Positions 4,027 to 31,361 of a stretch of DNA of 35,807 nt are shown piece by piece. The stretch lies in contig JAQWQE010000068.1 in the NCBI GenBank assembly GCA_029244925.1, forward strand, positions 1-35,807. The letters run 5' to 3'. Under the pieces are notes generated by a model, which was not told the origin of the DNA, searched no databases, and saw nothing but the letters and a program-made list of their open reading frames with translations. The position numbers and the translations under genes were made by a program. Source of the stretch: Gammaproteobacteria bacterium. GTDB taxonomy: Bacteria > Pseudomonadota > Gammaproteobacteria > Steroidobacterales > UBA11654. Each line of letters opens with the position of its first letter. The first letter of the stretch is position 1.

Positions 4027-5607
4027 ATGAGTTATCTAGTTTTAGCAAGAAAATGGAGACCAAAGTTCTTCTCTGAAGTATCTGGACAGGATCACGTAGT
4101 CAAACCTCTCCAAAACTCCCTAAATAAAGATAAAGTTCATCATGCATTTTTGTTCACAGGCACAAGAGGAGTGGGTAAAACAACGATTGCGAGACTTTTA
4201 GCGAAAGCATTAAATTGCGAGAATGGCGTAACGTCTGAACCTTGTGGAAAATGCCAACCATGTACATCCATTGATGATGGTAACTTTATAGACCTAATCG
4301 AAGTCGATGCAGCCTCACAAAGAGGGATTGATGACACCAGAGAGCTATTGGAGAACAGTCAATATACGCCTTCAACAGGAAGGTATAAAGTCTACTTAAT
4401 AGATGAAGTACATCAATTAACCAAAGAAGCCTTTAACGCTCTCCTTAAAACACTTGAAGAACCACCCCCACATATGAAGTTTCTTTTAGCAACCACAGAA
4501 AGTGAGAAAATACCGATTACTGTTTTATCAAGATGCTTGAAATTCAATCTTAAGAAAATATCTGAAGATACAATTCAACAAAGAATGATAGACATATGCA
4601 AAAAAGAGAAGATTAAGTATGAAGACAATGCATTGGGTTTAATCAGTCAAGCTTCCGATGGAAGTATGAGAGATGGTTTAAGTCTTCTGGATCAAGCACT
4701 AGCGTATGGTGATTATAATCTCACCACTGAGCACATAGAGAATATGCTTGGAACAATAGATATTAATTACTCAATAAATCTCTTAGTTGCAATTTTTAAT
4801 CAAGACAAAGAGCAGCTACATGAAGCGCTTAAAGAAGTCGATGAACTCTATCCAGACTATTCTTTAATCTTAAACTCGATGGCTTCTTTGTTGCAAGAAA
4901 TTGCTTTCAAACAAGTGACTGATAAAACTGATAAAACAATAAATTTAGACATCATTGAGTCCATAGCAATGAATCAAGAACCTGATTTAATTCAATTGTT
5001 GTATCAAATAGCAATTACATCAAAAAGGGACATGGAGATTGCACCAAGTATGAAAGAAGGTTTTAGAATGTCCATACTTCGTATGTTTTCATTCTCTATC
5101 AATGAAGAGATTGCTCCCATTCAAACTTTAGAAAAAAAAACAGTAAAAATACAAAAAATAGAGAATGGCAGTGAATCTCAATCTAAAAATAACAACAATC
5201 GTCAAAGTGAAACCAAACCTAAAGCAACAACACATGTTATGAATAGTAAGACTTGGCCCAATCGAGTCAATGAGATGAATATTAATGGAACGGTTAGACA
5301 GTTGGCTTCTCATTGCAGTCTAGAGAGTATTAAGGATCAGAAACTGCTGTTAACAATTGATACGATGCACGAACATCATTTATCAACAAACAGAGTTGAC
5401 GCTTTAAAAAATTATTTAATATCTAATTATGATTCCATTAAAAGTGTCGATATAGCACTCAAATCCAATGATGGCAGAACATTAGCAAAAAAAAGAAGTG
5501 AAGCCAATGAAGAGCAAAAGATCATGAACCAATCCAGAATAAAAACAGATCCAAATCTTCAACAATACATGGAGCTTTTTGATGCAAAAATAGATGAAGA
5601 ATCATGA
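4027..5607 (+). CDS. dnaX: DNA polymerase III subunits tau/gamma
   Basis: 526 aa; YLVLARKWRPKFFSEVSGQDHV, Walker A GTRGVGKTT, zinc-binding CENG..CGKCQPC, IDEVHQLTKEAFNALLKTLEEPP. Confidence 0.97.
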   Translation: MSYLVLARKWRPKFFSEVSGQDHVVKPLQNSLNKDKVHHAFLFTGTRGVGKTTIARLLAKALNCENGVTSEPCGKCQPCTSIDDGNFIDLIEVDAASQRGIDDTRELLENSQYTPSTGRYKVYLIDEVHQLTKEAFNALLKTLEEPPPHMKFLLATTESEKIPITVLSRCLKFNLKKISEDTIQQRMIDICKKEKIKYEDNALGLISQASDGSMRDGLSLLDQALAYGDYNLTTEHIENMLGTIDINYSINLLVAIFNQDKEQLHEALKEVDELYPDYSLILNSMASLLQEIAFKQVTDKTDKTINLDIIESIAMNQEPDLIQLLYQIAITSKRDMEIAPSMKEGFRMSILRMFSFSINEEIAPIQTLEKKTVKIQKIENGSESQSKNNNNRQSETKPKATTHVMNSKTWPNRVNEMNINGTVRQLASHCSLESIKDQKLLLTIDTMHEHHLSTNRVDALKNYLISNYDSIKSVDIALKSNDGRTLAKKRSEANEEQKIMNQSRIKTDPNLQQYMELFDAKIDEES

Positions 5608-15161: not shown

Positions 15162-15514
15162 TGGAGGCGGCGGGAATCGAACCCGCGTCCGCTAACCATC
15201 CATAAAATGATCTACATGTTTATCCCGTTCTTCTTTTTATTTAATTTAATAACGCCGAAAGGAAGGCAATTAGCAAACGATTTCCCGACTTATGTTTAAT
15301 GATTATTTGCAAGAAAAAGAACAATCACGATCTTGGATAATTGTCATTAATAAATTCCTCCAAGTGAAAAGTTATTAATGCCAGCCGGATTTAAGCGGCT
15401 AGTGCGTAGTTGTCGTTATTTGCAACTAAGTTTTATCAGATTGATTAACGAGGATTCTGATACCTCGACATGCACATAAAACTTCAGTATCAACGTCGAA
15501 ACCTTGTCGCCCCC
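15162..15514 (-). ncRNA. ssrA: Transfer-messenger RNA (one-piece)
   Basis: Minus strand 5' GGGGGCGACAAGGTTTCGACG...; 3' GGACGCGGGTTCGATTCCCGCCGCCTCCA. 7-bp acceptor GGGGGCG/CGCCTCC with one G-U; T-arm GCGGG-TTCGATT-CCCGC. Tag frame GCA AAT AAC GAC AAC TAC GCA CTA GCC GCT TAA = ANNDNYALAA at 15391-15423. Confidence 0.96.
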
Positions 15515-30737: not shown

Positions 30738-31361
30738 ATGGCTAAAGAACATTGGCGACAAAAACAATCACTGGATAAATATTTCTTAGAATCTAAAGCA
30801 AAAGGATTTAGATCAAGGTCGGCATTCAAGTTACAAGAAATTGATCAAAAGTTAAAATTATTCTCATCAAATATATCAATTCTAGATTTAGGCTCAACAC
30901 CTGGCGGATGGAGCCAGTATATTTCAAAAAAAAATCACAAGAAATTAAACATTATTGCAACTGATATAAACGTTATGACTAAAATAAATGGCGTATCTTT
31001 TTTTCAAGGAGATTTCACAGAAAAAAGCACCCAAGAAACGCTTATTAATATGAATAAAAACAACAGATTTAATGTTATTTTATCTGACATTTCACCAAAT
31101 AAATCTGGTAATAAGATAACGGATCAGTATATTTTCTATGACTTAATCTCAAATATCCTTGAATTCTCAAAAATTGCCCTTATAAATGAAGGTAAGATTG
31201 TCATTAAGGTGTTTCATGGGCTAGGATTTGAGGATTTTACAAATGATTGTAGAAAAATATTTGAAACTGTTAAGTTCTTTAAACCGAAAGCTTGTAGAAC
31301 CGACAGTAAAGAAACATACATGATAGCTAAAAACATTAGGTATAATTCAAAAAATGAATAA
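30738..31361 (+). CDS. rlmE: 23S rRNA 2'-O-ribose U2552 methyltransferase
   Basis: 207 aa; [58 protein letters not shown] retain the K-D-K-E catalytic residues. Confidence 0.93.

Follow-up and report, generated by a model that had tools for sequence, protein, structure and literature searches.

A conserved nine-adenine run beyond the clamp-loader domains of dnaX as a putative Thermus-type transcriptional slippage site in a marine gammaproteobacterium

Does a run of nine adenines within an intact dnaX gene mark the origin of a second, shorter clamp-loader protein? To our knowledge, the production of a long and a short form by transcriptional slippage has been proven to date only in heat-loving Thermus, and we asked the question here of a marine member of the Gammaproteobacteria. 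The window (the whole 35,807-nucleotide stretch analyzed) carries dnaX on its forward strand at 4027-5607, encoding the DNA polymerase III subunit tau/gamma at a full length of 526 aa, as identified by its open reading frame, Pfam and NCBIfam dnaX matches, and a PDB match to E. coli tau/gamma. Clamp-loader domain III occupies residues 233-362 (4723-5112, PF12169), and ILRMFSF, its last conserved motif, ends at residue 356. Domain V of tau, which binds the alpha subunit, occupies residues 395-526 (5209-5604, PF12170). Given these Pfam boundaries, the A9 run falls in the variable linker between the two domains (residues 357-394, 5095-5208), which is poorly conserved in an alignment of the genus. 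The sequence there reads TTA GAA AAA AAA ACA, with a G at 5131 followed by the nine adenines at 5132-5140, which open within codon 369 and extend to the first base of codon 372, roughly 13 residues beyond the end of domain III. An A_AAA_AAA heptamer, a potential ribosomal -1 site, lies in frame within the run at 5133-5139.

The gene is open through all 526 residues, and the zero frame has no stop at the run. Messages lacking one A would end at a TAA (5144-5146) in a 372-aa product finishing ...LEKKQ, while messages with one extra A, or a -1 ribosomal shift, would end at a TGA (5172-5174) in a 382-aa product finishing ...LEKKNSKNTKNREWQ. A sequence-only reading of this DNA had called the G and nine A's, the in-frame heptamer, and both truncated products, and these are exactly as it described. 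It had also placed the run directly past domain III, a position now supported by Pfam and the E. coli alignment and one that holds across families. The alignment with E. coli gamma/tau stops at window residue 357, equivalent to E. coli residue 360, and the crystallized E. coli gamma comprises residues 1-373 (PDB); the 372-aa product would therefore correspond to a complete minimal gamma. In the same linker (5095-5208), domain IV has shrunk to ~36 residues versus ~146 in E. coli. Domain IV of E. coli tau binds DnaB.

Several known systems offer models for such a locus. In Thermus thermophilus, dnaX undergoes transcriptional slippage (Larsen et al. 2000, as relayed in PMC1088944, PMC5009743, and PMC4320859), with slippage on an A9 run yielding 50% short product gamma (PMC1088944). 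Our dnaX resembles that of Thermus in its single open tau frame with a nine-A run, the nearby stops in both other frames, and the two lysine tRNAs of the genome, but the Thermus run lies seven-eighths of the way along the gene whereas ours lies at ~70%, directly past domain III. Slippage is demonstrated in Thermus and putative in our host. The programmed -1 site of E. coli dnaX (A_AAA_AAG) shares the gene region, the short gamma, and an in-frame A-rich heptamer, but our site has no AAG, Shine-Dalgarno element, or 3' stem-loop and sits 13 residues past domain III rather than 69. For two-ORF dnaX genes with A7-A10, realignment at transcription has been proposed (Antonov et al. 2013, PMC3711429); these share a slippery poly-A run with our gene, but their tau requires a shift, whereas ours is read without one. 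Blochmannia dnaX has a poly-A frameshift of another kind, corrective and located farther downstream (PMC3017870). Our literature search, which covered few subscription papers, found no A9-type dnaX in free-living Gammaproteobacteria.

An A9 run by itself is unremarkable in this genome. The window contains two, versus 7.9 expected when dinucleotides are shuffled and 2.9 when its genes are shuffled synonymously, and there are 52 in the incomplete host genome. The sequence-only reading had cautioned that A9 alone is weak evidence and had named a second run in rlmE (30926-30934). That run is present, and it is interrupted in the sister species, which is 89% identical, and missing elsewhere, so the caution was well placed. 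We rejected A9 rarity as an argument on the window and genome counts. Synonymous shuffles of the window revealed no clear codon-level depletion of A9, and slippage at A9 in the host therefore draws no independent support from this quarter. One alternative involves no recoding at all, the run arising because the linker is rich in lysine and the genome in A and T. AAA makes up 81% of lysine codons in the window, A9 runs are common enough in the genome, the probability of an A9 given the dnaX linker amino acids is ~0.38, and only 13 of 126 dnaX linkers in the order carry one. The run is thus non-significant in a single genome, since neither the genome count nor the linker probability sets it apart, and any significance must lie in its conservation.

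Within the genus we compared ten genomes, nine with a full dnaX. Exactly one dnaX A9 was present in eight of the nine, always in the linker and 13-17 residues past domain III, written as GAA AAA AAA ACA (G000, G001), as CAA or GAA AAA AAA ATT (G002, G003, G004, G006, G008), or as AAA AAA AAA (G009). The remaining member, G005, has lost the lysine pair and has no linker A9, and neither does G010 from the sister genus; the run is therefore not universal. Four-fold synonymous sites in dnaX are mostly 25-50% identical between species of the genus, near saturation, so that most lineages sample codon choice almost independently; G002/G006 (69%) and G000/G001 (64%) are the most similar pairs. Comparison of G008 with G004 uncovered several loci with A9 in both genomes, which are orthologous. 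Shared runs in this pair need no special cause, and we dropped pairwise conservation as an argument, building instead on the wider genus and order sets. At a conserved EKKI site of a ZipA-like gene, a control, A9 was kept in three of six capable genomes, the others having AAG or GAG.

In the order sample of 126 dnaX genes, 13 linkers have an amino-acid sequence compatible with an A9, and every one of them carries it; the codon usage of the individual genes predicts 4.6 (P = 7e-7 assuming independence). Because the species are related this joint probability is optimistic, and with one representative per lineage we estimate P ~1e-3. In a class sample of 88 dnaX genes, picked blind to A9 and skewed toward the query's relatives and smaller genomes, all three capable linkers carried the run versus 1.7 expected, for a combined 16/16 versus 6.3. 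Such conservation beyond amino-acid and codon-usage expectation is a supporting feature of Thermus-type slippage. The sequence-only reading had proposed checking related dnaX genes and held that a run broken by synonymous AAG codons in relatives would count against its reading; every capable linker in the order (13/13) and class (3/3) had the full A9 or A10. Outside the linker, runs of A9 or longer are almost missing from dnaX, making up two of the 15 in the order set. Two dnaX genes with 55-57% GC (L018, L095) have AAA AAA AAA in the linker while using AAA for only 50-60% of lysines, and are good candidates for wet-lab work. The by-product explanation accounts poorly for the complete realization of capable linkers, for runs in these GC-richer genes, and for the interruption of the rlmE and ZipA-like runs, and we regard it as improbable. 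On the sequence evidence, the dnaX A9 is very probably a selected recoding site.

Counting from the run start, the host gene meets a stop after four codons in the minus-A frame and after 14 in the plus-A frame. For slippage both frames must close, whereas one suffices for a -1 ribosomal shift. Among 15 representatives, both frames close sooner than they do when codon order is shuffled, with P = 2e-4 for the minus-A frame, as low as the test can go, and P = 3e-3 for the plus-A frame. The prompt closure of both frames, argued earlier from this one gene, thus exceeds shuffle controls across families; for the host plus-A frame alone the individual P is 0.86. The 113 dnaX genes of the order without A9 give median stop distances of 44 and 31 codons when counted from the equivalent position, and both frames close within ten codons in only 4%.

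The main competing form of recoding is an E. coli-style programmed -1 ribosomal frameshift at A_AAA_AAA(_A), which would make the 382-aa gamma and leave the extra run length incidental. The heptamer is in frame, and in E. coli cassettes runs of A7-A11 shift 10-63% (PMC3711429); the same paper also gives 40% shifting for a nine-A cassette from another gene in an E. coli reporter, where slippage and ribosomal shifting were apparently not separated. The E. coli-type signals are missing from the host site: there is no Shine-Dalgarno-like sequence within 20 nt upstream of the run, no A_AAA_AAG heptamer (A_AAA_AAA is followed by A, with no AAG), and no stable 3' stem-loop (-2.1 kcal/mol, z about 0), and an Rfam search returned no relevant match. 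The same checks on E. coli dnaX found the upstream GGAG and a 3' stem-loop of about -19 kcal/mol. The lack of a strong stem-loop, also part of the sequence-only reading, extends to most A9-type genes, unlike those of the A_AAA_AAG type. Predicted hairpins in dnaX across the class have a median of -18.7 kcal/mol at A_AAA_AAG sites and -5.0 at A9/A10 sites (P = 9e-4; P = 0.03 on composition-corrected z), so that the two kinds of signal seem to be separate.

Some genes blur this distinction. A modest downstream hairpin (-6 to -8 kcal/mol) in the G002/G006/G008 subclade would suit a ribosomal shift; we rejected the G006/G008 stem-loop as a stimulator, as it probably echoes conserved PL-NG codons. 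In family f81, A9 and A_AAA_AAG occur together, and one of the three members has a -13 kcal/mol hairpin; this family and a few other A9 plus AAG sites are possible hybrids. Two more gammaproteobacterial families (L319, L330, L340) have a dnaX A9 or A10 followed by AAG ~53-57 residues past domain III, near the position of the E. coli site, and these may likewise be hybrid slippage/frameshift sites. Other gammaproteobacterial dnaX genes (L304, L316, L323, L339) have the E. coli-type A_AAA_AAG with strong 3' hairpins and are predicted ribosomal frameshift sites.

Three further observations weigh against the ribosomal explanation for our host. Seven A's and one closed frame would suffice for it, whereas the genes retain nine or ten; the frame that a -1 shift would not use closes even more strictly across representatives, while the -1 frame of the host closes late, at 14 codons; and the host genome encodes a separate tRNA-Lys CUU alongside the UUU species. 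The presence of two lysine tRNAs in T. thermophilus has been cited as disfavoring ribosomal shifting and favoring slippage (PMC5009743). We consider a purely ribosomal mechanism unlikely, though the most credible of the alternatives.

Two explanations would leave the run without a role in recoding of the message. Homopolymers can undergo slippage during replication, and the A9 could therefore be a phase-variable (contingency) tract that switches dnaX. All run-bearing dnaX genes are open in frame, their runs measure either nine or ten, and dnaX belongs to the essential core of replication genes, making this the least probable of the readings considered. Alternatively, gamma could arise by proteolysis of tau with the A9 irrelevant, as in Caulobacter crescentus (PMC5009743). 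Caulobacter shares gamma as an end product, but makes it at the protein level without an RNA signal. Proteolysis leaves both the nucleotide-level conservation of A9 and the early stops in both frames unexplained, and we judge it very unlikely here.

We therefore favor programmed RNA-polymerase slippage at the dnaX A9, leading to a short gamma as in Thermus, as the probable explanation, with confidence limited because the species are related. RNA polymerase would add or drop A's on the putative slippage site, giving a mixed population of dnaX messages. Those with nine A's (or nine plus or minus three) would encode the 526-aa tau, and those with eight or ten would reach a stop 0-11 codons past the run and encode a 372- or 382-aa gamma. 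This predicted gamma would retain the full clamp-loader domains I-III and lack the alpha-binding domain V. We predict that the slip likely occurs at transcription rather than on the ribosome; ribosomes may slip at the site too, since A9 includes A_AAA_AAA. Both the efficiency of the slip and the use of gamma in the cell we infer.

The dnaX neighborhood has features of its own. The dnaX/recR junction (5604-5607 in the window) ranges from -4 to +6 nt, overlap or near contact, in all ten family members (L001-L010), while in 20 other members of the order the dnaX-recR gap is 320-430 nt, sized for ybaB as in E. coli. From these sequences, ybaB seems to have been lost from the operon in the L001-L010 family. 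Early stops on slipped messages could lower coupling to recR. Elsewhere in the window, a tmRNA gene with the tag ANNDNYALAA lies on the minus strand at 15162-15514.

How far does the trait extend? A pattern survey of 369 genomes of the class, with matches verified by translation, added 12 dnaX A9/A10 runs in seven further families (G277; G211, G342, and G445; G276; G231; G257 and G373; G254 and G370; G219 and G448). In total, at least 12 gammaproteobacterial families have A9/A10 at +8 to +17 residues from domain III. A9 is scarce genome-wide in some carriers (5-20 in all), with five in G373 and 13 in G277. A phylum-wide pattern survey yielded no additional dnaX A9. The DnaX tree of the order requires at least five changes of the trait, which is therefore patchy.

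The host thus apparently represents an unreported, widespread occurrence of a known kind of slippage. We lean toward the view that Thermus-type A9/A10 slippage arose or persisted repeatedly in dnaX, in at least 12 gammaproteobacterial families, beside E. coli-type frameshifting. A review holds that most non-enteric bacteria lack dnaX frameshift signatures and may make no gamma (PMC3290774); our reading, if true, conflicts with the published view that such signatures are missing outside enterics. How important gamma is beyond E. coli, Thermus, and Caulobacter has long been asked, and a recurrent, conserved A9 would imply much wider selection for it. Selection for a short gamma would then be widespread, with evolution arriving at it along two interchangeable routes, and a single class would offer natural comparisons of slippage-type with ribosome-type dnaX for studying the choice between them.
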